From Pseudomonas putida (GTDB taxonomy: Bacteria > Pseudomonadota > Gammaproteobacteria > Pseudomonadales > Pseudomonadaceae), in contig NZ_JANHLK010000001.1 in NCBI RefSeq assembly GCF_028682635.1, positions 186,001 to 250,000 of the forward strand: a stretch of DNA of 64,000 nucleotides. The letters are read 5' to 3'. The first letter of the stretch is position 1. Every line of letters begins with the position of its first letter. A program made the translations under genes and the position numbers. Below, one piece after another: positions 11,249 to 62,699 of the stretch. Under the pieces are notes generated by a model. That model did no database searches, was not told where the DNA came from, and saw nothing but the letters and a program-made list of their open reading frames with translations.

Positions 11249-11454
11249 AATCAAATCCCTGCGAGCTCGGATAAAGCGCGCACCTTAGCTCAGATAGTTA
11301 GGGGGACGTATGAACTGACGGGTCTGTCGTAGCAATATAGGAATGTTCCTACATGCGAAAAGGAAATGGATTACGTGTCAACCGGTATTTTTTGGTAAGT
11401 TGCCACAAAAGATGTTGCTGTTTAGTTATTGGGAGCAGGGTGGTGATATGTGGG

Positions 11455-15115: not shown

Positions 15116-15123
15116 GGTGTCAC

Positions 15124-17076: not shown

Positions 17077-17160
17077 GTTTGAGTTTTATGCCGTGGAAAT
17101 GGAGATATTCCGTATGTTTCAATATGCCGATTAAGCAGCGATTTATACTATAATACGCTT

Positions 17161-17823: not shown

Positions 17824-17841
17824 GATGACCACCCTCTGGTT

Positions 17842-37206: not shown

Positions 37207-37444
37207 GGCAGTCAATTTCCTTCGCGAGTTCTCGAAAAAGAATGTCGTGCATCCCTCAAAAGTGTCCATTCCCTGGAATACGGCGGCAAGTAAGGTCGCG
37301 GGCAGGCAAGACGCTTGAGGAAACTTTGGGATGTTTCCATTGTTTGGTTTGTACGGCTGGATCCAAATCAAGCGTAGACGATATTTCTGATGCTATAAGC
37401 GTTATCTAACGTTGCCGTATCAGACATCTTGAAGGTCAGCTTAT

Positions 37445-39047
37445 GGCCGATTTTGTTGAAAAAAGTAGCCGCCCTGCATAGCCTGCGGCAAAATCTCTGC
37501 ATTGGCCAGCAGGGAAGCACGCAGCATGATGGGACAGTTATCGAGTGGACAGGAACGGCTGTTTTATTCGTTCAACCTTGAAGACCACATCCCCGCCAAT
37601 CAACATCTGCGTAGCATTGATCGGTGTCTCGATCTGAGCGACTTGCGCCATTACCTCGCCGATTTTTACAGCCCAATTGGGCGTCCTTCAATTGACCCTG
37701 AGTTGATGATCCGCATGCTGATCGTGGGCTATTGCTACGGCATTCGCTCAGAGCGTCGGCTGTGCGAAGAAGCCCATTTGAACCTGGCGTATCGCTGGTT
37801 CTGCCGGTTAAGCCTCGAAGATGAAGTCCCCAATCACTCGACCTTTTCCAAAAATAGACACGGCGGTTTTCGGGACAGCGATCTGTTCGCTGGCTGTTCA
37901 ATGAAGTGCTGCGTCGTTGCATGGAAGCCGGCCTGGTCAAGGGCGAAGGCTTTGCCGTGGACGCCAGCATCATCAAAGCGGATGCCAGCCGGCAGCGCGG
38001 TGTACCGGGTAACGAACAGGTCAACTGGAACGATCCGGCCCCGAGCACTCGCGCTGTACGTAAGTATCTTGAGGCGCTCGATGAAGAGGCTTTGGCCGAA
38101 TCGCTGCCGAAGCGCCTAATCTTCAAGCCCGCTGGACCGCAGCTCCAGGTAGCCCAACGTTTTATGCCTAGCCCACGAATTATCTGACCCATACCGAGCA
38201 CGACGTCATTGTGGATGTGAAACCCACACCTGCTCATCGCACGGCGGAGGTCGAGAGCACAAAGATCATGATCAATCGGGTCGAAGCTCAGTTCGACGTC
38301 AAGCCGGAACGCTTTATTGGCGATACAGCTTACGGCCGCGCCGATGCTGGCAGGGATGGTAGAGGAAAAGGACATCGAGCCGCATGCGGCGCTGTGGGAC
38401 AAAACCGAGCGTAAAAACGACAGTTTTTCGAGCAGCGATTTCCATCGGAAAAAGAGGCCGAGGAATACCGCTGTCCAGCCGGCAACGTATTGTGCAGCCA
38501 ATGACGAGCCTTCAAGTACGAACGTTCGCACGTCACCAAAGCCAACACCATCATCTTCCGATTCCGGCAGGCCGACTGCATTGCCTGTCCGATGAAAGCC
38601 AAGTGCTGCCCGAACACTGCGTTCCGCAAGATCGCCCGCAGCATCCATGAAGCCGCGCGCGATGTGGCTCGGCGAATCGCAACGACACCTGCGTACGTGC
38701 GCTCTCGCCACGGACGTAAGAAGGTCGAAATGTTGTTTGCCCACCTCAAGCGCATCCTGAAACTGGATCGCCTGAGACTACGTGGCATGGGTGGCGCGAC
38801 TGATGAATTCACGCTGGCCGCAGCGGTACAGAACCTGCGACGGCTGGCTAAATTTACATCTCAAGGCCACCTGCCACGGGATAGGTGCGCCTGCACTCAG
38901 CAAAAAACCTCAAATTAACCCACTCACTGAGCAGCAACGGTCAACGAAGGGCCGAGATGCCACTCAATGTGGTGAGTCGGTTTTTAGGCGATGGTAGTGC
39001 CTGAGTTCAGGTCAGCTGAAAATCCGACTTTTTCAACAGAATCGGCC
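37445..39047 (+). mobile_element. IS1182-family insertion sequence, inactive
   Basis: Terminal inverted repeats are visible: GGCCGATTTTGTTGAAAAAA at 37445 and, on the other strand, GGCCGATTCTGTTGAAAAAG ending at 39047. The enclosed 1.6 kb contains one disrupted IS1182-type transposase gene. The element separates the autotransporter from the sulfatase gene. I found no clear target duplication. Confidence 0.75.
37527..38918 (+). pseudogene. IS1182-family transposase with several frameshifts
   Basis: The first frame (start ATG 37527, MMGQLSSGQERLFYSFNLED) has the IS1182 N-terminus through VPNHSTFSKNRHG. Near 37885 one base is missing and the protein continues in another frame (MLRRCMEAGLVKGEGFAVDA). 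Further breaks occur near 38115, 38340 and 38450. The last part ends with KKVEMLFAHLKRILKLDRLR. At least four breaks make it non-functional. Confidence 0.85.
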
Positions 39048-39196: not shown

Positions 39197-40765
39197 TCAT
39201 TTTTTTTCATAAATTTTCGCATCTACTGCGGCACGGATCTGATCGATGCTGAAGCTGGCTGGTTTTTGGCTCGGTGGATAGTCGATGAAGGTCTGTAAGA
39301 ACGCAGCCGATTTCATAACGGCAATTTCAGTCAGATAAACATTCTTGGTGGACCAGTCATAATATTGATCTGATACCACGTCTGCACGTTCAAAGGGGTC
39401 CATGCGCAAATTGAAGATTTTCGGCACCCTAAGGCACACGAAGGGTTCACTCCAGACTTTGAAACCACCCGGTTCACGCTGTTCGCAGAAGACCGCTTTC
39501 CAGTTGCCATAACGCATGGAAACCAGCACGCCGTCGTCGTTGAAGTAGTAGAACTCCTTGCGGTCGCCCTTGGGCTGCTGACCAGTCAGATACGGAAGTT
39601 GGTTATAGCCGTCCAGGTGCACCTTGAAATTGGTGTCGCCGGAAACCGGCGCCCAACCCTTGAGTAACTTGTCTTTCACACTGGTATCGCCGGCGGCAGC
39701 CATCAAGGTCGGAAACCAGTCAAGTCCCGAGAATATCTCGTTCGAGACCTCTCCCGGTTTGATCTTGCCCGGCCAGCGGATCATCGCCGGCACCCGGAAT
39801 GCGCCTTCCCAGTTGGAGTTCTTCTCATTGCGGAAGGGCGTGGTTGCGGCGTCCGGCCAGCCGAACTGGTTCGGGCCATTGTCGGTGGTGTAGACGACGA
39901 TGGTGTTGTCGGCGATATTCAGGTCGTCGAGGGTTTTCAGCAGCTTGCCGATGTCGCCATCGTGCTCGAGCATGCCATCGGCATATTCGTTGCCGGGCAT
40001 GCCGCTTTGACCCTGCATCGAATCGCGCACGTGGGTATACGCGTGCATCCGGGTGGTATTCATCCAGACAAAGAAAGGTTTGTCGGCCTTGGCCTGCTTC
40101 TCGATGAAAGCCTGCGCAGCGGCGGTGGTTTCGTCGTCGATGGTTTCCATGCGCTTGGCGGTGAGAGAGCCGGTGTCTTCAATCTTGCCGTCGGCGAAGC
40201 TGTGGATCACCCCGCGAGGAGAGGCAGCCTTGACGAACTCGGCATCATCCTTAGGCCAATAGGGACGCTCCGGTTCTTCTTCTGCGTTGAGGTGGTAGAG
40301 GTTGCCAAAGAATTCGTCGAATCCGTGTGCAGTTGGCAGGTATTCGTCACGGTCACCGAGGTGATTCTTGCCGAACTGGCCGGTGGCATAACCTTGTGAC
40401 TTCAGGGCCTGGGCGATGGTGATGTCGCGCTTTTGCAGGCCGACAGTCGAACCTGGCATACCTACTTTGGTGAGGCCGGTACGCAACGGCGTCTGTCCCG
40501 TAATGAATGAAGAGCGTCCTGCGGTGCAACTGTTCTCCGCATAGTAGTCGGTAAACATCATGCCTTCCTTGGCAATACGGTCGATGTTTGGCGTCTTGTA
40601 ACCCACCACTCCCATGGAATAGGCGCTGATGTTGGTCTGGCCAACGTCGTCGCCGAAGATCACCAGAATGTTGGGTTTTTCCGCGGCTGCGACAGTTGCC
40701 GAAATAGCCATCACCGAGACGACCATCAGCGCATATCCCTTTAGCCACTTGCGTTTACGGGTCAT
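39197..40765 (-). CDS. Periplasmic arylsulfatase (type I, formylglycine-dependent)
   Basis: This 522-residue precursor has a Sec signal (residues 1-28, ending ATVAAAE). The type I sulfatase core begins with the metal ligands FGDD (39-40). Cys80 in SCTAGRSSF fits the C-x-A-x-R motif oxidised to formylglycine by a cytosolic or sulfatase-maturing enzyme; Arg84 completes it. KNHLGD and TTDNGPN are further conserved segments. It would hydrolyse a sulfate ester outside the cytoplasm. ATG 40765 has GGGAG about 10 nt upstream; an in-frame upstream extension to 40960 has no signal-peptide logic. It is divergent from the esterase gene at 41024. Confidence 0.9.
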   Translation of the reverse strand: MTRKRKWLKGYALMVVSVMAISATVAAAEKPNILVIFGDDVGQTNISAYSMGVVGYKTPNIDRIAKEGMMFTDYYAENSCTAGRSSFITGQTPLRTGLTKVGMPGSTVGLQKRDITIAQALKSQGYATGQFGKNHLGDRDEYLPTAHGFDEFFGNLYHLNAEEEPERPYWPKDDAEFVKAASPRGVIHSFADGKIEDTGSLTAKRMETIDDETTAAAQAFIEKQAKADKPFFVWMNTTRMHAYTHVRDSMQGQSGMPGNEYADGMLEHDGDIGKLLKTLDDLNIADNTIVVYTTDNGPNQFGWPDAATTPFRNEKNSNWEGAFRVPAMIRWPGKIKPGEVSNEIFSGLDWFPTLMAAAGDTSVKDKLLKGWAPVSGDTNFKVHLDGYNQLPYLTGQQPKGDRKEFYYFNDDGVLVSMRYGNWKAVFCEQREPGGFKVWSEPFVCLRVPKIFNLRMDPFERADVVSDQYYDWSTKNVYLTEIAVMKSAAFLQTFIDYPPSQKPASFSIDQIRAAVDAKIYEKK

Positions 40766-41023
40766 ATTTGCTGCTCCCTTAAACTTGATTTGAGGTTGAC
40801 CACCAACCTTGTGAGGCTGCACTAACTCAAGGGCACTCGCGTCAATGCGACCAGACAAGTGAAAAACGAACACCGTTTTTACGGTACTCCAATTGAGTTT
40901 TTCGACTTCGATAACCGATGGCTGGTTTGCTTTACCCCCCATTGAGGGTAGCCACCGCAACCGTGGCGCTCAGTAAGCTGTTGCTTATGCGCGGTATACG
41001 GATTCCCTGCGAATGGAGTGGCA
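40766..41023. promoter_or_regulatory. Divergent promoter region of sulfatase and esterase genes
   Basis: The 258 bp between two divergent starts must contain both promoters. It includes an imperfect palindrome TACCCCCCATTGAGGGTA at 40933-40950, a member of the C/G-run group. It sits about 75 bp before the esterase start. No consensus -35/-10 pair was identified with confidence. Confidence 0.45.
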
Positions 41024-42340
41024 ATGAAAAACGAAAAACCCCCAAAGGTGCACCCTGAGCGATCGGCAATCGGTATGCCTCGCGTGTTGCGCGCCCATCA
41101 ACCCGACCGTGAGGCGCGTGCATTCCTGCGCTTGGCCAACCTCTCCATGTGCCTGCGCCGAGCAGAAGACTACTCGCTGCCCAAACTGCGCCTGGGCTGG
41201 CGATTGGCGGCGCTGGCTCTCGCGCGCAATCCTCCGGTGGGTTCTGTAACCGAGCAGATGATCGACGGACCGGGTGGCGAAATCGCCCTGCGCATCTTCA
41301 AACCTGACAATGCGCAGCAACTGCGGCCTGCGTTCATGTGGTTTTTCGGTGGCGGGTTCATCATCGGCGACCTGGATACTGCCGATGGCATCTGCCGCAG
41401 CATTGCGCTGGCCGCCAACTGTATTGTCGTTGCCGTTCGCTATCGCCTGGGGCCGGAACACGATCTGTCTGCGGGCCGCGCCGATGCCCTTGCGGCATTC
41501 GAATGGATGGCAAAGAGCGGCGCCCAATTGGGTATCGATACGACTCGCCTGGCGATGGGGGGCGATTCGGCGGGTGGCAATCTCTGTGCTGCCGTTGCCC
41601 AGGAAAGCCTGCGTCGCGGCGGCCCGTCACCGAGCCTGCAAGTGCTGGTTTATCCGGCCACCGAACTGGTGGAGAAATTCCCTTCCTACGCGGAGAACGC
41701 ATTCGGGCGAGCGCTGTTGACCGATCACGCGGTGCAATGGATCGAGCAGACCCTGGCCCCTTCGCTCGACACCCTGGACCTGCTGGATCCTTGGTATTCC
41801 CCACGCCGCAGCCCGGACATGCGTGGCTTGGCGCCGGCAGTCGTCGTCAGTGCCGGTTTCGATCCGATCCGCGACGATGGCCTGGACTATGCCGCTCGCC
41901 TGCGTGCAGCCGACGTGCCGGTGGAACTGTTGCACTACAGGGGGCAGTTCCACGGATTCCTCAATTTTGATTCGGTCAACAGTGCCAGCCGCGACGCCTT
42001 GCAACGCATCGGCAATGCGCTGACAACCGTGTTCGCCCGGCATCCGGCTGCGGACAGGACGATCGAGATCGCCGACAGAGGGCCACGCAGACAGTCGCGC
42101 CTGCGCGCCACCGCCGACGAGTTCGCAACCTCCACCTTGACCACCTGGGTTATCACTGAGCGATGGGGTATCACCTTGCTGCGTCTGCTATCGCCAAAAG
42201 CGGCCGGTGCCTGCCGGCTGTTGATCAGGCCGTGGCTGATACCCACCGTAATTATCCGGCGCAAAGCCATATCCGGTCTGGACCGGCTGGCTGCGCGTCA
42301 AACCTGGCCGACAGAGAAAAACTTTACTGTAAAACCTTGA
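41024..42340 (+). CDS. HSL-family alpha/beta-hydrolase (esterase)
   Basis: This 438-residue protein has a hormone-sensitive-lipase-type esterase core in residues 90-330. The oxyanion motif is FFGGGF, with Phe instead of the usual His of HGGG; the nucleophile Ser is in GDSAGG, Asp in FDPIRDD and His in GQFHGF. About 100 C-terminal residues after the core are extra and Arg-rich (LLIRPWLIPTVIIRRK). It would hydrolyse a carboxylic ester. GGAG precedes ATG 41024; a GTG at 41018 is also in frame. It is followed by the phaE/phaC pair after 14 bp, so the three are probably one operon. Confidence 0.85.
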   Translation: MKNEKPPKVHPERSAIGMPRVLRAHQPDREARAFLRLANLSMCLRRAEDYSLPKLRLGWRLAALALARNPPVGSVTEQMIDGPGGEIALRIFKPDNAQQLRPAFMWFFGGGFIIGDLDTADGICRSIALAANCIVVAVRYRLGPEHDLSAGRADALAAFEWMAKSGAQLGIDTTRLAMGGDSAGGNLCAAVAQESLRRGGPSPSLQVLVYPATELVEKFPSYAENAFGRALLTDHAVQWIEQTLAPSLDTLDLLDPWYSPRRSPDMRGLAPAVVVSAGFDPIRDDGLDYAARLRAADVPVELLHYRGQFHGFLNFDSVNSASRDALQRIGNALTTVFARHPAADRTIEIADRGPRRQSRLRATADEFATSTLTTWVITERWGITLLRLLSPKAAGACRLLIRPWLIPTVIIRRKAISGLDRLAARQTWPTEKNFTVKP

Positions 42341-42354: not shown

Positions 42355-42759
42355 GTGGCATTACCAGATCCGTTCAAATTGTATCGTGAGGCTATTACCC
42401 GGTTCGAAAACAGCGTCAATGCCCTGGCCGCTCGTAACATCGACTCGAAAGAACTGGGCTCGGTGATCGATCAATATTCCAGGGTCACCCTCGGGCTGCA
42501 GCACCTGTCGCAGACATCGCTGGAACGCTTGCACAAGCGCATGGGCCTGCCCAGCCGCGCCGAGGTAGACGCCCTGGCAGCATCTTTACGGCGAGTGGAG
42601 GACAAGCTCGATCAATTGCTTCCTGCGCCAACCGGTACCGCGATTGCACCGCAACCGCCACGCACGCGTCGCCCATTGGCTCAGGCGCGTCCGGCACCGC
42701 TTAAGCCGGCGTCCAAGCGTAAAAGAAAGACAGGAGGTGTCAATGAGCCGGCCGCATGA
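42355..42759 (+). CDS. phaE: PhaE-like subunit of class III PHA synthase
   Basis: The 134-residue protein has an N-terminal helical part (PDPFKLYREAITRFENSVNA), the PhaE-type segment MGLPSRAEVDALAASLRRVEDKLDQL, and a basic Pro/Lys/Arg-rich tail typical of granule-associated proteins. It is much shorter than classic PhaE (about 350 residues), so it may be a short PhaE or a phasin-like partner. GAGGAA precedes a GTG at 42355. It overlaps phaC by 17 bases, which supports assembly of the two products. The assignment relies on context plus the short motif. Confidence 0.6.
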   Translation: MALPDPFKLYREAITRFENSVNALAARNIDSKELGSVIDQYSRVTLGLQHLSQTSLERLHKRMGLPSRAEVDALAASLRRVEDKLDQLLPAPTGTAIAPQPPRTRRPLAQARPAPLKPASKRKRKTGGVNEPAA

Positions 42760-43819
42760 CAGTAAGATCGTTGAGATGTCGTTGACCGACAGGCTACGTT
42801 CAGAGCTCGGCATGATGGTCCAGCGTGGCCTCAAAGGTCTCGAGTATTTGAGCACTCCGCCGCCAGCGGTGGGCTTGACGCCCAAGACACTCATTCACCG
42901 TCGCGGCACCTTGTGCCTGTACCACTATCACGCGACATCGGAGGAAATTTATCGCGTGCCGTTGCTGTTTGTCATGGCGACGACCAGCAAGGCGGCCATT
43001 TTTGACCTGACGAAGGGGCAGAGCCTGATCGAGTTTCTGCTCGCAAAGGGTTACGACGTCTATGTCATGGACTGGAATGCGCCGAGCCGGGAAGAGGTCC
43101 ATCTGAAGCTTGAGCACTACGTGCTCGACTTCATTCCCGATTGTATTCGTCGCGTGCAGCAGAACTCGGGTGTGGACGATGTCACGCTGATTGGCTACTG
43201 CATGGGTGGCGTCCTTTCGACGCTTTACGCTGCGCTGCATCCCGGCGGCCCTCTGAAGAACCTGGTGTGTTTCACAACGCCCATCGACTGGACGAAGATG
43301 CCCCTGGCTAAGCAATGTCACTTCAAGGCCGAGCGCTTGATCGATGCAGCGGGCCTTGTCCCGCCAGAGACCATCATCAGGGCTATTGAGCTGCATCGTC
43401 CTGCAGGTCGCATCGCCGGTCAGGCCCGGCTTTGGGACAACATGTGGAACGACGACTACGTCAGAGGTTACCGCATGATGGCGCGTTTCAATGACGAGAC
43501 GCTGCCGCTTCCCGGTGAATATTTCCGGCAGGTCCACCAAGAGTTCGGGCTAAAGAATTCGCTGTACGAAGGTGGCTTGCGCATCGGTGGCCAAGAGGTT
43601 GATCTGAAAAACATCCGGACTTCGCTGCTGCACATCATCGCGCAATACGACTCACTGGTTCCGCCCGATTGCGCGCAGCCTTTGGTCGCTCGTGTGGGTT
43701 CACATGACAAGGAAGAGCTGATGCTTCCGGGCGGCCATGTCAGCCTGGTGGCGGGGCCGGCTGCGGTCAAGCGGATGTGGCCCAAGCTTGATCATTGGTT
43801 AGGAGGGCGGTCCGTTTAG
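42743..43819 (+). CDS. phaC: Class III polyhydroxyalkanoate synthase catalytic subunit
   Basis: The protein has 358 residues, near the 355 of Allochromatium PhaC. The catalytic triad is Cys153 in the lipase-like box GYCMGG, Asp303 in IIAQYDSLVP and His332 in PGGHVSLV. It polymerises (R)-3-hydroxyacyl-CoA. Class I and II synthases of pseudomonads are about 560 residues and lack a PhaE partner; this one is the short class III type. ATG 42743 has AGGAGGTG upstream. The PHA pair is directly upstream of a branched-chain beta-oxidation operon, so it may store (R)-3-hydroxyacyl intermediates (inference). Confidence 0.9.
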   Translation: MSRPHDSKIVEMSLTDRLRSELGMMVQRGLKGLEYLSTPPPAVGLTPKTLIHRRGTLCLYHYHATSEEIYRVPLLFVMATTSKAAIFDLTKGQSLIEFLLAKGYDVYVMDWNAPSREEVHLKLEHYVLDFIPDCIRRVQQNSGVDDVTLIGYCMGGVLSTLYAALHPGGPLKNLVCFTTPIDWTKMPLAKQCHFKAERLIDAAGLVPPETIIRAIELHRPAGRIAGQARLWDNMWNDDYVRGYRMMARFNDETLPLPGEYFRQVHQEFGLKNSLYEGGLRIGGQEVDLKNIRTSLLHIIAQYDSLVPPDCAQPLVARVGSHDKEELMLPGGHVSLVAGPAAVKRMWPKLDHWLGGRSV

Positions 43820-43828
43820 GGGCAGGCT

Positions 43829-43852
43829 CATGGGGGGGATTCCCCCCCCATG
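43829..43852. terminator. Hairpin CATG7 ... C8ATG after phaC
   Basis: CATGGGGGGG pairs perfectly with CCCCCCCATG around a 4-base loop, starting 10 bases after the phaC stop and 84 bp before the racemase gene. There is no T-run, so it may be a weak terminator or part of the C/G-run operator group. Confidence 0.55.
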
Positions 43853-43935
43853 GAGTGTGGGGCGCTCAGGATGTCGGGCATCTACTGTCTTGAGCCGCAG
43901 CGAACAGCCTCCCTATAACAAAAGAGAAACTTGAG

Positions 43936-45066
43936 ATGCCCGGACCTTTGGCAGGTGTGAAAGTAGTGGAAATGAATGCGATCGGCCCTGCGCCGTTCGC
44001 TGCCATGATGCTGGCGGATATGGGCGCGGAGATCATTCGCGTTGACCGTCATGCGTCCGGTTTTCTCAATGCCGATGGCAGCCTGCTTGGGCGCGGCCGT
44101 CGCAGCATTGCGATAGATCCGCGTAAACCCGGCGCCACTGAAGTGTTGTTGCAGCTGATCGACGACGCCGACGTGCTGATCGAAGGGTTCCGGCCCGGCG
44201 TCATGGAGCGCCTTGGCCTGGGTCCAGAAATCTGCCTTGAACGTAATCCGCGATTGATCTACGGGCGCATGACCGGTTGGGGCCAGAGTGGGCCATTGGC
44301 ACACGCGGCAGGGCATGATCTTAATTACATTGCTCTGTCAGGCGTACTTAACGCGATGGGCCACGCCGACCGGCCACCGACGCCACCATTGCACCTTGTT
44401 GGCGACATGGGCGGGGGGGCGATGTTTTTGGTGACAGGTATTCTGGCAGCACTATTTGAGGCTCAGAAATCTGGCTTGGGACAAGTCGTGGACGCCGCCA
44501 TCTGTGACGGCGCGACATTGCTCGCCAGCATGTATTACGACTGGCTTCACCAGGGCCAGTGGGACGATGAGCGCCAGCACAACATGCTTGATGGCGGTGC
44601 TCCTTTCTATGGTTGCTACACGTGCGCCGACGGCAAGTTCGTGTCGATTGGCGCCATCGAACCGCAGTTTTATCAACTGCTTCTGGAGTTATGCGAGATC
44701 GACGATCCGGACTTCAAGCCGCAATGGCAAAAGCAGGACTGGCCGGCGTTGCGCCTGAAACTCGAGAAGCTGTTTATGACTCGCACCCGCGATGCCTGGA
44801 GCCAATTGCTGGAAGGCACTGATGCCTGCTTCGCTCCGGTGCTGGATTTCAGCGAAGCCTTTACCCACCCGCACAACCGCGCTCGCGGTCTGTTTATGGA
44901 AACTGCCGGCGTATTGCACCCGGCGCCAGCTCCGCGGTTGAGTCGTACACCCGTGGAAGCGGGAAGGGTGGTGAAGAACGGCGAAAACACCCTCGAGATT
45001 CTTGAAAAACTCGGCCTGAGCAGCGGGCAGATCGACGAACTGCGCAACGTCGGCGCGATCGTTTGA
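43936..45066 (+). CDS. Alpha-methylacyl-CoA racemase-like (CaiB/BaiF family III)
   Basis: This 376-residue protein has the N-terminus LAGVKVVEMNAIGPAPFAAM. His127 (AGHDLNY) and Asp157 (VGDMGGG) sit where mycobacterial MCR has its catalytic His126 and Asp156. That pair distinguishes alpha-methylacyl-CoA racemases from ordinary family III CoA-transferases, so 2R/2S-methylacyl-CoA epimerisation is the likely reaction. In sterol and isoprenoid degradation this makes the 2S form required by the dehydrogenase, and the next two genes are acyl-CoA dehydrogenases. A GAGAAACTTGAG stretch precedes the ATG. CoA transfer cannot be fully excluded. Confidence 0.85.
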   Translation: MPGPLAGVKVVEMNAIGPAPFAAMMLADMGAEIIRVDRHASGFLNADGSLLGRGRRSIAIDPRKPGATEVLLQLIDDADVLIEGFRPGVMERLGLGPEICLERNPRLIYGRMTGWGQSGPLAHAAGHDLNYIALSGVLNAMGHADRPPTPPLHLVGDMGGGAMFLVTGILAALFEAQKSGLGQVVDAAICDGATLLASMYYDWLHQGQWDDERQHNMLDGGAPFYGCYTCADGKFVSIGAIEPQFYQLLLELCEIDDPDFKPQWQKQDWPALRLKLEKLFMTRTRDAWSQLLEGTDACFAPVLDFSEAFTHPHNRARGLFMETAGVLHPAPAPRLSRTPVEAGRVVKNGENTLEILEKLGLSSGQIDELRNVGAIV

Positions 45067-45111: not shown

Positions 45112-45201
45112 AGGTCGCGCTGATCAATCTTCTAACGTGGTTGCCAGTGGGTCAGTCGAGCTGTCCTTGCCCACTTTCAGCCGAATGTGAGGAGTACATC
45201 A

Positions 45202-46395
45202 GTGGACATCCAATTCACCCCTGCCGAAGTGGCTTTCCGCGAGGAAGTCCGGGCGTTTTTGCGCGACAGATTGCCGGCCGATATCGCAGCGCGCGGTCGC
45301 CAAGGCAAGCGTTTCAACAAAGAAGACCAGGTCACCTGGATGCGCCTGCTCAATGAGCGAGGATGGTTGGCGGCCAGCTGGCCAGTTGAATTTGGCGGCA
45401 CCGGTTGGGGCGCGGTGGAGAAACATATCTTCGACGAAGAATGCTACGCGTTCGGCGCACCGTGGATCGTGCCGTTCGGCGTCAACATGGTTGCCCCGGT
45501 GATTATCAAGTTCGGTACACCAGAACAGCAGGCGCGCTTTCTGCCGCGCATCCTAAGCGCTGAAGACTGGTGGTGTCAGGGTTATTCCGAGCCGGGTGCC
45601 GGTTCTGACTTGGCCGCGGTCAAGATGCGGGCCGTACGTGATGGCGACCACTACAGGGTCAATGGCCAGAAAACCTGGACCACCCTGGCCCATTACGCCG
45701 ACTGGATTTTCTGCCTGGTGCGCACCGACCCCGAAGCGCAACAACAGCGGGGCATCAGTTTCTTATTGATCGACATGAAGTCCCCGGGTATCACCGTACG
45801 CCCGATCATCACCCTCGATGGCGAGCATGAAGTCAACGAAGTGTTCTTCGACAACGTGCGCGTGCCGGTGGAAAACCTGGTCGGCGAGGAGAACAAGGGC
45901 TGGACCTGCGCCAAGTACTTGTTGACCCACGAGCGCACCAGCATTGCCGGCATTGGTCAGGCCAAGCAGATGCTCGGGCGCCTTAAGCGCATTGCCAGCC
46001 AGGAGCAACGCGACGGCCTGCCACTGATCGACGACATCCAGTTGCGCATGCAAATCGTCGAGCTGGAAATCCAGCTGATGGCGATCGAAATGAGCAACCT
46101 GCGCATTGTCGCCGCTGCCCGCGACGGCGGAGTGCCAGGCACCGAAAGCTCGTTTCTAAAGATCAAGGGCAGTGAAATCCGTCAGGCCATCACCTACTTG
46201 ATGAGCAAGGTTCTGGGGCCGTATGCCATGCCCTTCATTGAAGAAGAGTTGGGCTATGGCGAGCAAGCGGATCTATACCGCGACTACAGCACCACGCCTG
46301 CCAGCCAATACCTGGATATGCGCAAGACTTCGGTCTACGGCGGTTCAAACGAAATCCAGAAGAACATCATCGCCAAGATGATTCTAGAGCTGTAA
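45202..46395 (+). CDS. Acyl-CoA dehydrogenase, FadE subunit 1
   Basis: This 397-residue flavoprotein of the acyl-CoA dehydrogenase family has the FAD/substrate loop WWCQGYSEPGAGSDLA, the TW-T motif QKTWTT and the C-terminal YGGSNEIQKNIIAKM, which includes the flavin-binding and NEI segment. It catalyses alpha,beta-dehydrogenation of an acyl-CoA. It is paired with a second dehydrogenase 14 bp downstream, as in the alpha2-beta2 enzymes for steroid side chains where each subunit keeps only part of the FAD sites. GTG 45202 has GGAG 7 nt upstream. Confidence 0.9.
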   Translation: MDIQFTPAEVAFREEVRAFLRDRLPADIAARGRQGKRFNKEDQVTWMRLLNERGWLAASWPVEFGGTGWGAVEKHIFDEECYAFGAPWIVPFGVNMVAPVIIKFGTPEQQARFLPRILSAEDWWCQGYSEPGAGSDLAAVKMRAVRDGDHYRVNGQKTWTTLAHYADWIFCLVRTDPEAQQQRGISFLLIDMKSPGITVRPIITLDGEHEVNEVFFDNVRVPVENLVGEENKGWTCAKYLLTHERTSIAGIGQAKQMLGRLKRIASQEQRDGLPLIDDIQLRMQIVELEIQLMAIEMSNLRIVAAARDGGVPGTESSFLKIKGSEIRQAITYLMSKVLGPYAMPFIEEELGYGEQADLYRDYSTTPASQYLDMRKTSVYGGSNEIQKNIIAKMILEL

Positions 46396-46409: not shown

Positions 46410-47555
46410 ATGGACTTCAAACTTACCGAAGAGCAGCAAATGCTGCAGGACACCGCCGTTCGCCTGGTGCGTGACAATTACGCGTTCGAAGCGCGCGAGC
46501 AGTTCGCCAAGAGCGAGCTGGGCTACAGCCTTGCGTTTTGGCGCCAACTGGGCGAGCTGGGTCTGACCGCCGTGCCATTTGCCGAGGAATTTGGTGGTTT
46601 TGGTGGCGGCGGCGTGGAGACGCTGCTGATCATGACCGAGTTGGGACGCGGTTTGTGCCTTGAACCCTATTTGCATTCGGTGATTTTCGCCGGTGGCCTG
46701 CTAACCCAATCTGGCAGTGACGAACAACGCAACGAATTGCTGCCGGCCGTTGCCAGCGGGCAATTGCAATTGGCAGTGGCCGTCGACGAGCCAACCAGCC
46801 ATTACCAGTTGCACGATGTGCGCACCCGCGCCAAAGCCGAGGACGGAGGCTGGCGTCTCAACGGGCGTAAATCGGTAGTGGTCGCAGGGCACAGCGCGGG
46901 GTTGATTGTCGTGTCCGCGCGAACCTCAGGCGACGATCGTGACGAAACCGGCATCAGCCTGTTCTTGCTCGATCCGCGTGCGCCGGGTGTCAGCCGCCGC
47001 ATCTATCCAACCATGGATGGCCGCCATGCCTGCGAACTGTACCTGGACGATGTTTTCGTCAGCGCCGCCGGTGTACTCGGTGAGTCCGGTCAAGCCCTGG
47101 CCGCGCTGCGCTACCAACAGGGTCGCGCGCTGGCCGCGCAGTGCGCCGAAGCGGTAGGCAGTATGGAAGCGGTGTGCGACTTGACCCTTGATTACCTCAA
47201 GACACGTCAACAGTTCGGCCAGGCGATCGGCAAGTTCCAGGCTCTGCAACACCGCATGGTGGACATGCGTATCGAATTGGACCAGGCCAACTCCATGGCC
47301 ATCCTCGCCGCATGCGCAGCTGATGCGCCTGACAGCGACGAGCGCAGCCGCACCCTGGCCGCCGCCAAGGTGGTGATCGTGCGCGCCGGCCGGTTTATTG
47401 CCGAGCAGGGTATCCAACTGCACGGCGGCATCGGCCTGACCTGGGAATACGTGCTGTCGCACCACGCCAAGCATTTGCTGATGCTCAGCCACCAGTTCGG
47501 CAACGACGACCATCACCTCAAGACTTACAGCCGGCTGCTGCAGGTCCACGCATAA
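46410..47555 (+). CDS. Acyl-CoA dehydrogenase, FadE subunit 2
   Basis: This 381-residue member of the same superfamily has the N-terminus MDFKLTEEQQMLQDTAVRLV, helical domain motif KTRQQFGQAIGKFQALQHRM and C-terminal QLHGGIGLTWEYVLSHHAK. The middle-domain FAD loop is degenerate (VAVDEPTSHYQLHDVRT, without the usual TEP-GS-D), so it probably acts as the partner subunit of the preceding dehydrogenase. AGGGGAA lies 7 nt before the ATG. Close spacing and similar size support a heterotetramer. Confidence 0.88.
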   Translation: MDFKLTEEQQMLQDTAVRLVRDNYAFEAREQFAKSELGYSLAFWRQLGELGLTAVPFAEEFGGFGGGGVETLLIMTELGRGLCLEPYLHSVIFAGGLLTQSGSDEQRNELLPAVASGQLQLAVAVDEPTSHYQLHDVRTRAKAEDGGWRLNGRKSVVVAGHSAGLIVVSARTSGDDRDETGISLFLLDPRAPGVSRRIYPTMDGRHACELYLDDVFVSAAGVLGESGQALAALRYQQGRALAAQCAEAVGSMEAVCDLTLDYLKTRQQFGQAIGKFQALQHRMVDMRIELDQANSMAILAACAADAPDSDERSRTLAAAKVVIVRAGRFIAEQGIQLHGGIGLTWEYVLSHHAKHLLMLSHQFGNDDHHLKTYSRLLQVHA

Positions 47556-47690
47556 CCGTTAATGCACCTTCTCTGTAGCAGCTGGCGCAGCCTGTGTCCG
47601 GCTGCGCAGCAGTCGCAAAACCGGCTCTCGTGGTCGAACAGGCACACCGCGTGCTGCCGCAGGGGAGAGTGTGTACACAAGGGGAAGAAA

Positions 47691-48554
47691 TTGAGCCGTA
47701 GCATTTCCACATTGACAGGCCTGCGTCGTCGACTGGACGGCGGCATGTTGTTCGGGCATACGCCGCGCGTGCTATGGGCCGACTGGATGAAGCCCGACCA
47801 CGACAACACGGTAGAGATTTCTGCTCGGGTGTTGTTGGTGCAAGAGCAAGGCAAAAACATCCTGGTCATGGCCGGTGCCGACAATCTGCTGGCGCCACTT
47901 GCGCGAAAATGCGGTTGCCAGCCGCGACCGGCGGGGTTGCTCGAAAGCCTGGCGCGGCGCGGGCTGAATGAAGACGACATCGATACGGTGGTTCTTACAC
48001 ACGTGCATGCGCAGCTTTGCAAGGAAACAAGTGAGCGGGTCAGAGACGGTGACATGCCGCGCCTGCTGTTCCCGCGAGCGCGCTATGTGTGCGGTGAACG
48101 ACATTGGCATCGCGCACGCCATCCGCACCCACGGGATCGGGACCTGTTCGTCTCATCCTTGGTGCATGGACTTGAAAGCAGTGGGCGTTTGACCCTGATC
48201 GGAAGCGGCCGATGTGAGTCACTCGGCGATGGCTGGTGTTTTCACATAAGCGATGGGTTTACCCCGGGCCAGCTTCTGCCTGAAATCCAATTGCCAGGCG
48301 GGCCAATGATTTTTTGCGGCGACCTGATTCCCGGCACGCATTGGCTGGATCTGGAGGTGACCAGCGGCCGAGACCGTAACGCTGAGCGAGTGGTCGACGA
48401 GAAGGAACACCTGCTCGACCACTTGGTGGCGCTCGGTGGCCGCTTGTTCTTTGCTCGCGACCCGGAAGTGGCGCTGGTCAAAATCATGCGTGACCGCCGA
48501 TCGCGCTATATCCCGTTCGATCACTACCGCACGTTGAACCGCTTCGAAGGGTAA
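47691..48554 (+). CDS. Metallo-beta-lactamase-fold protein with degenerate metal site
   Basis: This 287-residue protein has the MBL fold: an N-terminal strand region STLTGLRRRLDGGMLFGHTP, the central LLFPRARYV segment, HPHPRDRD, and FCGDLIPGTHW near the C-terminal Asp ligand. The His-x-His-x-Asp-His motif reads TVVLTHVHAQLC, so the Asp and last His are replaced by Gln and Leu. The downstream TDGHTPG motif of this group reads SDGFTPG. Hydrolysis by a dinuclear metal site is unlikely. A TTG at 47691 with GGGGAAG upstream is the proposed start; an ATG at 47742-47745 would be shorter. Confidence 0.75.
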   Translation: MSRSISTLTGLRRRLDGGMLFGHTPRVLWADWMKPDHDNTVEISARVLLVQEQGKNILVMAGADNLLAPLARKCGCQPRPAGLLESLARRGLNEDDIDTVVLTHVHAQLCKETSERVRDGDMPRLLFPRARYVCGERHWHRARHPHPRDRDLFVSSLVHGLESSGRLTLIGSGRCESLGDGWCFHISDGFTPGQLLPEIQLPGGPMIFCGDLIPGTHWLDLEVTSGRDRNAERVVDEKEHLLDHLVALGGRLFFARDPEVALVKIMRDRRSRYIPFDHYRTLNRFEG

Positions 48555-48708: not shown

Positions 48709-50520
48709 ATGACAAAAACAATAATGCAGGGTGGCTTTCGCCCCCAACTGCTGGCGGCTGCTGTTGCCATCGGCATGAGCACCCAGGCCAATGCCGTCAA
48801 CTTCGAAATCGGGGAAATCAAGGGGCAGTTCGACACGTCCCTGTCCATGGGGGCCAGTTGGGCGGTGCGCGGGGGTGATCCTGATTTCATTTCCCCGTTC
48901 AACTCGCAGGGCAGGCGCGGTAACTCGTCGTCCCGGCTGTCTGACGACAACCGCCTGAACTTCAAGAAGGGTGAAACGTTCTCGAAGATATTCAAAGGCA
49001 TCCACGACCTCGAGTTGAAGTACGGCGACAGCGGCATCTTCGTACGTGGCAAGTACTGGTACGACTTCGAACTGAAGGACGAACACCGGCCGTTCTATGA
49101 CATTGACGACAGCGGCCGCAATGACATGGCCAAGGCATCCGGTGCCGAATTCCTCGATGCTTTTGTCTATCACAACTACAACATCGGCGAACTACCGGGC
49201 AACGTGCGCCTTGGCAAGCAGGTGGTGAGTTGGGGCGAAAGTACTTTCATCGGCAACAGCATCAACTCGATCAACCCGATCGATGTGGCCGCGCTGCGGC
49301 GTCCAGGTGCCGAGGTCAAGGAAGGCCTGATTCCGGTCAACATGTTCTACATGTCGCAGAACATCACCGAGAATTTCAGTACCGAGGCGTTCTACCAGCT
49401 GGAGTGGGAAAGTACTGTCGTTGACAACTGCGGCACCTTCTTCGGCGTCGATCCCCTGTCCAAAGGTTGCAATGACCGCCAGGTGGGCGCCGGGCTGGAT
49501 CTGGCACCGGGGCTGGCCAACAACACGGCCAACCCGCCAGGTTTCAACAACAATACCGACGACGCCTACACCCCGCGGGTGAAAGACAACGAGGCCCGTG
49601 ACAGCGGTCAGTACGGCCTGGCCCTGCGCTGGTTTGTACCAGAGCTCAACGACACCGAGTTCGGTGCGTACGTGATGAACTATCACAGCCGCGGCCCTTA
49701 TTTGAGCGCCCTGCGTTCGAGCGTGGCCTTCAATCCCGCCAACCCAATCCCGGCGGTTCGCGCTTCGCGCTATTTTGTCGATTACCCGGAAGATATCCGT
49801 CTGTATGGCCTGAGTTTCCAGACCAACGTCAATGGCACCTCGTTGGGCGGCGAAATCAGTTACCGGCCGAACATGCCACTGCAGATCAACACCATCGACA
49901 TGGCGGGAGCCACAACCGGCAACCCGACGGCGCTGTTGAACCGGATCGGCTACGCCACCACAACCCCGGGCGGCGAGATCAACGGGTACAAACGCATGCC
50001 GGTGCTGCAGACGCAAATGTCCGCCACGCAGTTTTTTGAGCAGGTCATGGGGGCCAGTCGCCTGACCCTGGTGGGTGAGGTGGGTTACAACCGCATCAAT
50101 GGGCTGAGCGATGCCGACGGCAACGATCTGCGCTTCGGTCGCAGCGGGATTTTCGGCGTCGGCGTCCAGCCGGGGACTGCGAATGCTGCGTGCTTGAACA
50201 CCACCAACAACCCCCAGCAGGAATGCAACGACAAGGGCTTCTACACCACCAGTTCCTGGGGGTACCGCGCTCGCGCTCGTCTGGATTATCCGAACGTATT
50301 CGCCGGCATCAACCTGGCACCGAACCTGGCCTGGTCGCATGACGTCGAGGGCACCGGGCCCAACTTTGAAGAAGGGCTTAAGGCCGTCAGCCTCGGCGTC
50401 GATGCCGATTACAAAAACAGCTACACCGCGAGCCTCAGTTACACCGATTTCTTCGGTGGTCATTTCAACACCAATGGTGACCGCGACTTCGTCGCGCTCA
50501 GCTTTGGCGTGAACTTCTAA
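48709..50520 (+). CDS. DUF1302 outer-membrane-associated protein
   Basis: This 603-residue precursor has a signal peptide (about residues 1-29, ending ANA) and the DUF1302 start NFEIGEIKGQFDTSLSMGAS. The rest has alternating aromatic/polar strands and ends in a phenylalanine-terminated strand (LSFGVNF), as in outer-membrane barrels. DUF1302/DUF1329 pairs commonly accompany catabolism of hydrophobic substrates such as steroids, terpenes or aromatics in proteobacteria, where they are thought to aid uptake or surface processing. ATCGGAGTGCCGC lies ahead of the ATG. Confidence 0.85.
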   Translation: MTKTIMQGGFRPQLLAAAVAIGMSTQANAVNFEIGEIKGQFDTSLSMGASWAVRGGDPDFISPFNSQGRRGNSSSRLSDDNRLNFKKGETFSKIFKGIHDLELKYGDSGIFVRGKYWYDFELKDEHRPFYDIDDSGRNDMAKASGAEFLDAFVYHNYNIGELPGNVRLGKQVVSWGESTFIGNSINSINPIDVAALRRPGAEVKEGLIPVNMFYMSQNITENFSTEAFYQLEWESTVVDNCGTFFGVDPLSKGCNDRQVGAGLDLAPGLANNTANPPGFNNNTDDAYTPRVKDNEARDSGQYGLALRWFVPELNDTEFGAYVMNYHSRGPYLSALRSSVAFNPANPIPAVRASRYFVDYPEDIRLYGLSFQTNVNGTSLGGEISYRPNMPLQINTIDMAGATTGNPTALLNRIGYATTTPGGEINGYKRMPVLQTQMSATQFFEQVMGASRLTLVGEVGYNRINGLSDADGNDLRFGRSGIFGVGVQPGTANAACLNTTNNPQQECNDKGFYTTSSWGYRARARLDYPNVFAGINLAPNLAWSHDVEGTGPNFEEGLKAVSLGVDADYKNSYTASLSYTDFFGGHFNTNGDRDFVALSFGVNF

Positions 50521-50547: not shown

Positions 50548-51915
50548 ATGAAAACAAAAACAATGATGCATATAGGCGCACTCGCGCTGACCCTGCTGGC
50601 CGGGCAAGTGATGGCGGCAGTGTCTGCGGAAGAGGCGGCAAAACTGGGTACCACCTTGACGCCGCTCGGCGCGCAGAAGGAAGGCAATGCCGATGGCAGC
50701 ATTCCTGCCTGGACGGGTGGTTTGAAGCCTGGTGCGGCGCCCGTTACCAATCGATTTCTGGGCGATCCGTTCAGCGATGAAAAGCCGCTATTCGTCATCA
50801 CGCCAGCTAACGCCGAACAGTACAAGGACAAGCTCACTGCCGGTCAGCTGGCCATGTTCAAGCGCTATCCCAACACTTACAAGATTCCGGTGTACAAGAC
50901 TCATCGCACAGCGGCTGCCCCGCAGGATATCTACGATGCCACGAAACAGAGTGCGTTGAACACTCAGCCGGTCGACGGTGGCAATGGCCTGAGTAATTTC
51001 AGTGGCTCTCGCAGCTTCGCATTCCCGATTCCAAAAAACGGCGTTGAAGTGCTCTGGAATCACCTGACGCGCTACCGCGGTCACAATCAGCGACGCGAGA
51101 TGGTCCAGGCCACACCGCAGGTCGATGGGTCGTTCACTATCGTCGAATTCGAAGATGAAATGGCGTTCCCGCAATACATGACCGGAGACGACAAGGAAAG
51201 CACGGCCAACATTTTTGCGTATTACAAACAGCGCGTGACAGCGCCGGCACGCCTGGCCGGAAACGTTGTGCTGTTGCACGAGACCATCGACCAGGTGAAG
51301 GAACCGCGTCTGGCTTGGGTCTACAACGCAGGCCAGCGCCGTGTGCGGCGTGCGCCGCAAATCGCTTACGATGGGCCAGGTACCGCGTCGGACGGCATGC
51401 GGACGTCCGATAACGGAGACCTGTTCAACGGCGCGCCGGACCGCTATGACTGGAAGCTAATTGGCAAGAAGGAGATGTACATTCCTTACAACAACTATCG
51501 CCTGGCCTCGCCGTCGCTCAAGTACGCCGACATTCTCAAGGCCGGGCACATCAATCAGGACTTGACCCGCTACGAGCTCCACCGTGTGTGGGAAGTGGTG
51601 GGCACCCTGAAGTCAGGTCAGCGTCATATCTACGCTAAGCGTCATATGTACTTTGATGAAGACAACTGGCAGCTGGCCGAGGTCGACCATTACGACGGTC
51701 GCGGGCAGTTGTGGCGTGTTGCTGAAGGTATGGCTATTAACGACTATGAACAGGGCGTCGGAACCTATGCCGGTCAGACGCTCTATGACCTGGTAGCAGG
51801 ACGCTACCTGGTCATGGCACTGGGCAACGAATTCAAGGAGGGAATCGAGTACGGTGTCAAACCGAACCTGGCTGAGTTCACACCGGCAGCCTTGCGCAAC
51901 GCAGGTATTCGCTGA
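50548..51915 (+). CDS. DUF1329 periplasmic/outer-membrane lipoprotein-like protein
   Basis: This 455-residue precursor has a Sec signal (MKTKTMMHIGALALTLLAGQ ... AAV) and the DUF1329 signatures LGTTLTPLGAQKEGNADGSIPAWTGG and YNAGQRRVRRAPQIAYDGPG. It lies 27 bp after the DUF1302 gene and in the same operon. The family is LolB-like in fold by general knowledge and would act in the periplasm on hydrophobic ligands. A REP palindrome follows the stop and may serve as terminator. Confidence 0.88.
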   Translation: MKTKTMMHIGALALTLLAGQVMAAVSAEEAAKLGTTLTPLGAQKEGNADGSIPAWTGGLKPGAAPVTNRFLGDPFSDEKPLFVITPANAEQYKDKLTAGQLAMFKRYPNTYKIPVYKTHRTAAAPQDIYDATKQSALNTQPVDGGNGLSNFSGSRSFAFPIPKNGVEVLWNHLTRYRGHNQRREMVQATPQVDGSFTIVEFEDEMAFPQYMTGDDKESTANIFAYYKQRVTAPARLAGNVVLLHETIDQVKEPRLAWVYNAGQRRVRRAPQIAYDGPGTASDGMRTSDNGDLFNGAPDRYDWKLIGKKEMYIPYNNYRLASPSLKYADILKAGHINQDLTRYELHRVWEVVGTLKSGQRHIYAKRHMYFDEDNWQLAEVDHYDGRGQLWRVAEGMAINDYEQGVGTYAGQTLYDLVAGRYLVMALGNEFKEGIEYGVKPNLAEFTPAALRNAGIR

Positions 51916-54772: not shown

Positions 54773-55055
54773 GGCGAATCCAGTCTGCAACGGATTTGAA
54801 GGACCTTGGTGAAAGGCTCCCACTGCGTTGTTATGTTTTGCAGGATTTTAGGCCGATTAGTGCGCGTTTGTGCAACGACAAAATTGATCGTGGACGAACA
54901 CTGGTCGGGGCGAGAGTGGGGCCCCCCCCATATACCCCCCGCGGCGAGCGGGTACAGCCTGCAACGGCTTCGCAACGATGGCAGTCCGGATAATTCGGGC
55001 GGTCGGGCAGTAGAGCAAGACGCCGAAGCAGGGCCTAATTTTTATGGAGAATGTG
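54773..55055. promoter_or_regulatory. Divergent promoter region with C8/C6 motif
   Basis: The region contains GGGGCCCCCCCC (54918-54929), ATATA and CCCCCC (54935-54940), followed by GCGGCGAGCGGG. It separates the minus-strand MalT-like gene from the plus-strand thiolase gene and is the most conspicuous of the C/G-run sites. Exact promoter hexamers were not assigned. Confidence 0.45.
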
Positions 55056-56249: not shown

Positions 56250-56362
56250 TGCCGATCACATGCGCGCCGTGGGCGCGCATGTGTATTGCTGTCGTGTATG
56301 AGTCTGGCGTTCGTCCTGTATTAGACTTGCACTTGAACAAGATTGTTTGCGGAATTCAGTCC

Positions 56363-61793: not shown

Positions 61794-62210
61794 TCAGGCG
61801 AGGGCGACAACGGCTTCTCCAACCAGCTTCTCTTCGCCGTACTGATTGGCGCAGCGAAGCGCCAGGCGCACGCGCTGTTCGCCGGCATCGATGAACTTCT
61901 CGACGACCTTGCCACTACAAGTCGGTATGTGGCCGAGCTGAGTGATCCCGGTAAAACGCACCGACAGGCCGCGCACCTGGCTCTGCGGCACCCAAGCGGT
62001 CAACAGGCGTCCGAGGTACGCCGCGGACAACATGCCGTGGGCGAACACATCGTCCATCCTCGACTTACGGGCGAAGTCGAGGTCGACGTGAATCGGGTTG
62101 TGATCACCCGAAGCACCGCAGTACAAGGCGAGGGTGGTGCGGTTCACCGGCTGCAGCTTGAGCAGCGGGATCTCGTCACCGATCTGGATATCGGAAAATT
62201 GAACGCTCAT
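61794..62210 (-). CDS. MaoC-type (R)-specific enoyl-CoA hydratase subunit
   Basis: This 138-residue hot-dog protein has the hydratase-2 motif CGASGDHNPIHVD, with the catalytic Asp and His. It should hydrate 2-enoyl-CoA to (R)-3-hydroxyacyl-CoA together with the adjacent non-catalytic-looking hot-dog protein, 9 bp upstream. The two-gene arrangement matches split hydratases for bulky substrates, such as steroid side chains. Confidence 0.9.
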   Translation of the reverse strand: MSVQFSDIQIGDEIPLLKLQPVNRTTLALYCGASGDHNPIHVDLDFARKSRMDDVFAHGMLSAAYLGRLLTAWVPQSQVRGLSVRFTGITQLGHIPTCSGKVVEKFIDAGEQRVRLALRCANQYGEEKLVGEAVVALA

Positions 62211-62219: not shown

Positions 62220-62657
62220 TTAGCGCTGCACAAGGGAGGAGCGGATATCGGCGATGTGCTCGCCAGACTGGTTGGTCACTCGTGCTTCCATGACCACGAA
62301 TTGCAGGGCGCCACCTTTCTTTTCGTAGATGTCGGAGATGAAGCCGTCGAACGTCAGCACATCGCCGGCATAGGCCATCTTGTGGTAGACGAAGGACTGC
62401 TCGGCGTGAAGAACCCGGCCCAGGTCAAAGCCGACCAAATTGAGCAGCTCCACCACATCGCGGCCTTCGCTTTCCAGGCACTTGAGGAAGGTCGGAGGGA
62501 CCGGCAAGGATTCGTGACCGGCCGCCTTCGCAGCGGCTTCGTCGGTGTAGACAGGATCGGTTTCGCCGATGGCCTTGGCGAAGAAGCGCAGGCGTCCTTT
62601 TTCAACGTCGACGCTGTACGCGCCGGTTTTGTGCCCGATCAGATTTTTGTCTGTCAT
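62220..62657 (-). CDS. FAS1-like dehydratase (MaoC N-terminal type) subunit
   Basis: This 145-residue hot-dog protein begins MTDKNLIGHKTGAYSVDVEK and has the DPVYTDEAAAKAAG and HAEQSFVYHKMAYAGDVLT segments of the FAS1-like/MaoC N-terminal domain. It lacks the Asp-x-Asn-Pro-x-His motif, so it is probably the partner subunit of the MaoC protein. ATG 62657 is used; a GTG at 62663 also has AGGAG upstream. Confidence 0.88.
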   Translation of the reverse strand: MTDKNLIGHKTGAYSVDVEKGRLRFFAKAIGETDPVYTDEAAAKAAGHESLPVPPTFLKCLESEGRDVVELLNLVGFDLGRVLHAEQSFVYHKMAYAGDVLTFDGFISDIYEKKGGALQFVVMEARVTNQSGEHIADIRSSLVQR

Positions 62658-62699
62658 GTTCACTTGGCTCCTATGTCAAAACGCGCCTGAACAGGGCGA

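Follow-up and report, generated by a model that had tools for sequence, protein, structure and literature searches.

The subject of the present analysis is a pair of overlapping genes located in a 64,000-nucleotide stretch of DNA from Pseudomonas putida (contig NZ_JANHLK010000001.1, positions 186,001 to 250,000), which we refer to as the window: the first gene encodes a small protein of 134 residues, and the second gene, which begins within the last 17 nucleotides of the first (42743-42759), encodes a protein of 358 residues that belongs to the polyhydroxyalkanoate (PHA) synthase family, i.e. a PhaC protein. The two genes probably specify a PHA synthase that is made of two subunits and belongs to a distinct lineage, which is related to classes III and IV but passes the models of neither. 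The length of PhaC, its catalytic residues Cys153, Asp303 and His332, the overlap and the 134 codons of the small PhaE-like gene had already been listed in a first-pass annotation of the window, and these figures are exact; its assignment of the pair to class III is the part that our comparison revises.

The catalytic subunit and its place among the synthase classes

Both genes are maintained under purifying selection. The ratio of nonsynonymous to synonymous substitution rates (dN/dS) of phaC, in pairwise comparison with four related loci, is 0.114 (L028, P. vranovensis), 0.103 (L043, P. putida ASAD), 0.118 (L029) and 0.151 (L030), and that of the small-subunit gene, in three such pairs, is 0.149 (L043), 0.173 (L029) and 0.206 (L030); the partner gene of P. 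vranovensis, truncated by a frame change, was left out of the latter comparison. The values, 0.10-0.15 for phaC and 0.15-0.21 for its partner, show that the two are genuine reading frames under constraint. The GTG start codon of the small subunit corresponds to a Met codon in the homologues of P. vranovensis and P. putida ASAD.

The three residues of the catalytic triad are invariant in all 95 aligned rows of the lineage, at least five of which are repeat copies of the same contigs, and the triad is also present in every reference row that was tallied. The AlphaFold model of the window PhaC has a predicted local distance difference test score (pLDDT) of 90.7, and its closest structural matches are synthases: the top 15 PDB chains returned by Foldseek are all PHA synthases, and so are the top seven entries of VIA-align, at Z values from 38.5 (9knl, root-mean-square deviation 6.2, 348 residues aligned) to 34.3 (5hz2, deviation 3.0, 299 residues aligned). 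The first non-synthase of VIA-align, a gastric lipase, follows at Z 27.9; families that VIA-align leaves unlisted are not thereby excluded. Triad, PhaC box and predicted fold all match the assignment to the PHA synthase family that the first-pass annotation had made.

Among the NCBIfam models, the best match of the window PhaC is TIGR01836 (class III PhaC), at 258.8 bits, which misses the cut-off of 365.3; five other members of the lineage reach 293-341 bits on this model, all below the cut-off, whereas the class IV PhaC of Priestia megaterium passes it with 534 bits. The cut-off is exceeded in 53 of 398 Pseudomonadota genomes. On the class II model (TIGR01839), the window PhaC scores 59.3 bits against a cut-off of 855.4, its length is 358 residues against about 560, and its identity to the class II synthases of Pseudomonas is about 21-23%; the corresponding identities are 35.4% to Priestia, 33.1% to a Rhizobium PhaC and 28.6-30.6% to five class III rows. 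The PhaC box reads GYCMGG in the window and in Priestia, and GICQGG in class III. The lineage and class III show 13 fixed differences, at six of which Priestia agrees with the lineage and at four with class III.

These relationships have been examined in two trees, both with a single sequence, that of Priestia, representing class IV: a quick tree of 84 rows, 61 of them from the lineage, and a careful tree of 54 of the 84 rows, from which most lineage rows and the long-branch sequences L144, L146, L148 and L138 (Haloferax) were left out. A match on a P. filamentosa plasmid, annotated there as two separate genes, was kept out of the tree. In the quick tree, the lineage is a clade with a Shimodaira-Hasegawa-like approximate likelihood ratio test (SH-aLRT) support of 100, the separation of the class III-type rows has a support of 99, and the union of Priestia with the lineage one of 98. 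In the careful tree, 14 class III-type rows are united with a support of 100/100 to the exclusion of the window PhaC, and classes I and II, including the other synthases of the same genome, are placed behind a long branch supported at 100/100; the support for the lineage versus Priestia is only 78/92, with the best tree grouping class III and Priestia at 41/17. In the approximately unbiased (AU) test, neither the grouping of the lineage with class III (p = 0.588) nor its grouping with class IV (p = 0.561) is rejected.

Membership of the window PhaC in class II is thus ruled out by score, length and tree. Judged by models, motifs and trees, the protein belongs neither to class II nor to class III as modelled, and in similarity it leans towards class IV; for this reason, it is best called a member of a distinct lineage. 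The first-pass annotation had asked for a phylogeny against classes I-IV, with clustering in class II as the result that would overturn it: there is no such clustering, and the trees are compatible with a grouping of the lineage with class III as well as with class IV.

The small subunit

We have compared the small protein with other synthase partners through a profile made from 77 lineage members only, which was searched against 10,552 open reading frames (ORFs). The profile finds PhaR of Priestia at E = 3.6e-24 and the best PhaE at 1.2e-9; altogether, 31 genes outside the lineage are matched at E<1e-3, each of which precedes a phaC of the class III or class IV type, with 30 located directly before phaC and Priestia PhaR separated from it by phbB. 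The first unrelated ORF appears at E = 0.09. Within the lineage, the small gene is immediately 5' of phaC in 83 of 85 loci, and in the other two (L072, L081) phaC is located at most 250 nucleotides from the contig end. The 85 loci consist of 80 named loci (L028-L107), which are the best 80 of 456 confirmed candidates obtained by scanning 84,980 species at one genome per species, and of L139, L142, L143, L145 and L147.

The helical part of the small subunit (100 columns) is aligned by hhalign with columns 264-363 of the 441 columns of a 20-sequence PhaE alignment (97.6%, E = 3.9e-12). The counterparts of this domain are the C-terminal region of PhaE in class III and, in class IV, roughly the first 100 residues of PhaR; AlphaFold predicts helices at residues 6-28, 32-63 and 68-88, followed by a low-confidence tail. 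The family models are less responsive: the protein scores 12.6 bits on the PhaE model TIGR01834, with a cut-off of 154.95, and has no match at E≤0.1 to the PhaR model TIGR02132, on which Priestia PhaR scores 372.9. Its length of 134 residues compares with 382-490 residues in the 20 aligned PhaE ORFs, although some other class III-type partners have only 232-281. In the tail, the motif P-x-R-[TS]-[RK] is found in 70 of the 77 lineage partners; six of the remaining seven have a degenerate form, as judged by eye, and the P. vranovensis protein is truncated before the motif. Elsewhere, this short motif occurs in one of 30 PhaE/PhaR proteins and in 180 of 3,817 other ORFs of 100-250 residues.

Because of the profile matches, the hhalign alignment and the pairing with phaC, we consider the small gene, on grounds of homology, to be a minimal subunit of the PhaR/PhaE type and no chance ORF, so that the PhaE-like label given to it at first is sustained and extended to PhaR. 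A plain phasin has been tried as a candidate and rejected: the protein has a weak match to TIGR01837 (E = 5e-4), but every gene that the lineage profile recovers at E<1e-3 is a partner of the PhaR/PhaE type.

Gene setting and distribution

The pair is situated in a catabolic region of the window, the features of which are listed in Table 1.

Table 1. Positions of the gene pair, its sequence elements and the neighbouring genes in the window.
Feature	Position	Strand	Remarks
HSL-family (Abhydrolase_3) esterase	41018..42340	+	14 nucleotides upstream of the small-subunit gene
PhaR/PhaE-like small-subunit gene	42355..42759	+	134 residues, GTG start; three helices, then a low-confidence Pro/Arg/Lys-rich tail
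PPRTRRP tail motif, conserved	42655..42675	+	codons 101-107 of the small subunit
AGGAGG, ribosome-binding-like, for phaC	42732..42737	+	inside the small-subunit gene, 5 nucleotides before the ATG; read from the sequence
phaC-like gene (catalytic subunit)	42743..43819	+	358 residues, ATG start, Cys153-Asp303-His332, PhaC box GYCMGG
G/C-rich inverted repeat in the phaC-CaiB gap	43823..43859	+	without a T run; possible attenuator
CoA-transferase family III (CaiB/BaiF)	43936..45066	+	
Acyl-CoA dehydrogenase	45187..46395	+	nearest to the pimeloyl-CoA dehydrogenase large-subunit model, below the cut-off
Acyl-CoA dehydrogenase	46410..47555	+	nearest to the pimeloyl-CoA dehydrogenase small-subunit model, below the cut-off
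Metallo-beta-lactamase-fold hydrolase	47562..48554	+	
DUF1302 protein	48709..50520	+	
DUF1329 protein	50548..51915	+	
MaoC-domain hydratase half (HadB-like)	61794..62210	-	same catabolic region
FAS1-DH/HadA-like hydratase half	62220..62663	-	same catabolic region

Of the 80 named loci, 14 (12 from Pseudomonas and two from Variovorax) have a homologue of the esterase ahead of the pair, and the downstream gene order from CaiB to the DUF1329 gene recurs in P. vranovensis and, with an extra short-chain dehydrogenase/reductase (SDR) gene, in P. putida ASAD, some of the 80 loci being too short for this comparison. The signal of the inverted repeat after phaC is weak (z -1.8; 10 of 200 shuffles fold equally well). 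Beyond the window, the region continues with more acyl-CoA dehydrogenases, a crotonase, an alcohol dehydrogenase, an aldehyde dehydrogenase and a second CaiB (the crotonase, the alcohol dehydrogenase and CaiB were recognised by Pfam, the rest by eye). The statement of the first-pass annotation that the pair stands beside genes producing (R)-hydroxyacyl-CoA needs to be qualified: what adjoins the pair is the esterase on one side and CaiB with two acyl-CoA dehydrogenases on the other, and one has to go 17-19 kb along the region to reach the hydratases of the HadAB/MaoC-like pair and an SDR gene. The catabolic region could supply 3-hydroxyacyl-CoA, and the storage of branched hydroxyacyl units, which had been suggested on that basis, is conceivable because the region has acyl-CoA dehydrogenases, CaiB and the MaoC pair. 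A link with isoprene through Variovorax sp. WS11 led nowhere, as four PHA terms looked for in PMC9804861 do not occur there.

Other genes of the window have been observed around the catabolic cluster. A sulfatase (Pfam PF00884) is encoded at 39197-40960 on the strand opposite to the operon and might free an alcohol from a sulfate ester for the cluster. Two large regulators, at 52082-54823 (MalT/LuxR-type by Pfam) and at 56249-59095 (alike by eye), flank a thiolase/lipid-transfer-like gene and likely control the cluster. A transposase remnant with several broken frames (37502-38918, DUF772 in its first piece) is located between the sulfatase and a large autotransporter gene (32998-37371), the product of which has an AC_1/pertactin-like region and an autotransporter beta-domain. 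Farther upstream, a Tn7-like block of low GC content (about 42-46%) at 12253-17832 encodes TniQ and a TniB-type ATPase, together with two products that score below the Pfam cut-offs, namely an rve-domain protein and a TnsA-like match.

The neighbours of the pair have also been tallied across the lineage, with gene calls from a GC3 heuristic, some of which are wrong; the genes scanned are 78 of 152 called downstream, 61 of 144 called upstream and eight second downstream genes. A GNAT acetyltransferase gene is located directly 3' of phaC in 74 of the 85 loci, in several phyla; three loci end with the contig, and eight are without it, six of these being from Pseudomonas and including the nearest relatives of the window (L028, L043 and L029). 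The Pfam family PF00583 is matched by 44 of the 78 downstream genes. The window has CaiB where the GNAT gene would be, and its genome contains only two remote GNAT matches (28% identity). A possible tie, judged by eye, between the presence of the GNAT gene and Lys or Arg in the partner tail has been dropped, as the Pseudomonas partners with and without GNAT mostly have Arg.

Phasin-like genes are found within about 5 kb of the pair in 20 of the 80 named loci, ten of them from Variovorax and none from Pseudomonas; four additional loci also have one. An internal control is provided by those 48 named loci in which the sequence extends for 9 kb or more to either side: a phasin-like gene occurs within 5.3 kb in 12 of them, and at 5.3-10 kb in none. 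Ten of ten such genes that were scanned with Pfam are Phasin_2, two others likewise, and one passes TIGR01985. The proximity of phasin genes to the pair therefore supports a role in polymer formation, by an argument that rests on other taxa because the Pseudomonas copies have no such neighbour. In two Chloroflexota loci, the pair is preceded by a PadR regulator; PhaQ of the Priestia class IV operon also matches PadR models.

The Pseudomonas genome that carries the window measures 6.76 Mb and encodes three class II synthases, two on contig C44 (1034 and 1050 bits) and one on C47 (906 bits; cut-off 855.4), as well as a class I synthase on C59 (763 bits; cut-off 622.65). At E≤1e-40, 8 of the 298 genomes in the family, the present one included, have a homologue of the window PhaC, with two copies in one genome and three in another, and the lineage profile (E≤1e-100) finds 12 of 398 Pseudomonadota genomes, again with the present one, in 3 of 212 genera. 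The first impression that the pair is unusual next to the normal class II synthases is well founded, and the rarity fits the view that the pair is an accessory gene set in its family and has probably been transferred. An extra, horizontally acquired class I synthase is described in passages of PMC4041789 for another Pseudomonas, P. extremaustralis.

Among the best 80 of the 456 candidates, the lineage occurs in Pseudomonas, Variovorax, Burkholderia, Bradyrhizobium and metagenome-assembled genomes (MAGs) of Alpha- and Gammaproteobacteria, and also in Chloroflexota, Acidobacteriota and Candidatus Eremiobacterota, where all members are MAGs and labels can err; as assigned here, it is found in four phyla, i.e. 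Pseudomonadota, Chloroflexota, Acidobacteriota and Eremiobacterota. A separate observation concerns L036 (P. schmalbachii), where two small-subunit/phaC pairs stand in tandem (9544-13355) and the matching genome carries one more phaC, its third, at another place. The literature searched yielded no description of the lineage; since it was covered partially and mostly through abstracts and passages, this is weak evidence of absence. In passages of PMC8312272, class III PhaC is reported from 23 phyla, with classes I-III assigned by best BLAST hit, and the lineage may be counted inside class III there.

Alternative explanations, mechanism and known systems

Several observations weigh against a two-subunit synthase of a distinct lineage. 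The genome already holds four other synthases; the window PhaC has the lowest NCBIfam score of the six lineage members scanned and is without the GNAT gene of most relatives, and, therefore, the role of this copy may have shifted; no phasin-like ORF was seen in the window or near any Pseudomonas locus, and no depolymerase family is among the matches of the neighbour genes scanned; 10 of 41 class III/IV-type reference loci have no partner match at E<1e-3, some of them having short flanks. In Bradyrhizobium diazoefficiens, the order of blr2885 (phaC4/phbC1) and blr2887 (phaP5) resembles the phaC-GNAT-phasin order of L142 and L143, a putative link drawn from the locus tags and gene order that passages of PMC10888616 and PMC6201568 give for strain USDA110. 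According to passages of PMC10888616, only PhaC1 of this strain is required for polymerisation of poly(3-hydroxybutyrate) (PHB), and phaC4 is poorly expressed or absent; if blr2885 is a member of the lineage, this would speak against a role in bulk PHB formation.

Of the competing explanations, the one that retains most weight places the pair in class IV, as a PhaRC synthase of a Gram-negative host in which PhaR has become shorter: the PhaC box is common to Priestia, the identity to Priestia exceeds that to class III and Rhizobium, the partner profile finds PhaR first, the quick tree joins Priestia to the lineage, and the PadR gene of the Chloroflexota loci recalls phaQ. We nevertheless regard it as somewhat unlikely, given that Priestia passes a model that all six scanned lineage members miss, that the small subunit does not match the PhaR model, and that the careful tree, with its one class IV sequence, does not show the grouping, which the AU test nevertheless tolerates. 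Next comes the view that polymerisation has been lost and that the protein serves the catabolic pathway as an acyl-CoA thioesterase or acyltransferase, which would suit its alpha/beta hydrolase fold, the operon with CaiB and acyl-CoA dehydrogenases that is kept in P. vranovensis and P. putida ASAD, and the missing GNAT and phasin neighbours; the nucleophilic Cys, retained in all 95 rows, and the retention under selection of an activator-type subunit make it unlikely. That the pair is simply a PhaEC synthase of class III whose PhaE has been shortened, as first annotated, is quite improbable: TIGR01836 is indeed the best model, the partner does match the C-terminal part of PhaE, a homologous small protein on the plasmid pNL2 is annotated PhaE and the AU test tolerates the grouping, yet the cut-off is missed by more than 100 bits, the strongly supported class III clade excludes the protein, the box is that of class IV, fixed differences separate the two groups, and the partner is short and resembles PhaR far more than PhaE. 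Decay of a transferred PHA cluster into a non-functional relic, for which one could cite the broken transposase remnant at 37.5-38.9 kb, the rarity in the family and the truncated P. vranovensis partner, is very improbable in view of the dN/dS values of 0.10-0.21 and the intact frames and catalytic residues.

The general roles of PhaE and PhaR, and of the triad, are established for PHA synthases. If the pair is a synthase of the distinct lineage, the small subunit probably binds and activates PhaC; Cys153 would be acylated by a putative (R)-3-hydroxyacyl-CoA drawn from the catabolic pathway, with His332 and Asp303 as its catalytic partners, and PhaC would condense the units into a polyester or a short oligoester. 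The product would be a store, or an overflow that recycles CoA, tied to the catabolic pathway, and the upstream HSL esterase may free the stored units again.

A broader proposal, which we offer tentatively as a possibility, is that the lineage represents an overlooked fifth class of PHA synthases, present in at least four phyla and characterised by a class IV-like box, a minimal PhaR-like activator of ~13-15 kDa with a conserved P-x-R-T-R/K-x-P tail and, usually, a dedicated downstream GNAT gene, whose product may act on the end of the polymer, on the activator or on the synthase itself. In those Pseudomonas that have lost GNAT, the pair would belong to a catabolic operon with an esterase, and a pathway intermediate would be banked as polyester. 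PHA synthases are sorted into four classes, and annotation based on models can miss the lineage because its scanned members score below the class III model; in the one annotated example examined, pNL2, the catalytic subunit is called only "alpha/beta fold hydrolase". If it polymerises, the pair would amount to a compact synthase of two genes, with a PhaR/PhaE-type activator of unusually small size, perhaps with a new substrate range and a use in bioplastics. The conserved GNAT neighbour would be a lead on the regulation of such synthases, and, if the reading is true for Pseudomonas, there would be a storage branch tied to one catabolic pathway and separate from the medium-chain-length PHA operon.

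Among known systems, the class IV PhaRC of the Priestia megaterium plasmid is alike in its PhaC of ~360 residues, the GYCMGG box, the GHVS motif and the nearby small activator gene, and the first ~100 residues of its PhaR are homologous to the small subunit; unlike the window partner, which ends in the PPRTRRP tail, PhaR has 199 residues and a longer C-terminal part, phbB is inserted between phaR and phaC, PhaC passes TIGR01836, and the window pair has no phaQ, phaP or phaB beside it. The class III PhaEC system (TIGR01836/TIGR01834) shares the two subunits, the length of PhaC, the Cys-Asp-His triad and the partner domain, but differs in the box, the 13 fixed residues and its separate clade, and the window partner is mostly about one third the size of its PhaE. 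The class II synthases PhaC1 and PhaC2 of the same Pseudomonas genome, where both kinds coexist, have the same triad, but also 559-588 residues, low identity and a long, fully supported branch between them and the window PhaC. Lastly, the pair SARO_RS18625/SARO_RS18630 of Novosphingobium aromaticivorans pNL2 belongs to the same lineage (47% identity): it differs in having a GNAT gene next to it, and its small gene is likewise followed by PhaC, in a catabolic setting that comprises acyl-CoA dehydrogenases and a LuxR regulator.

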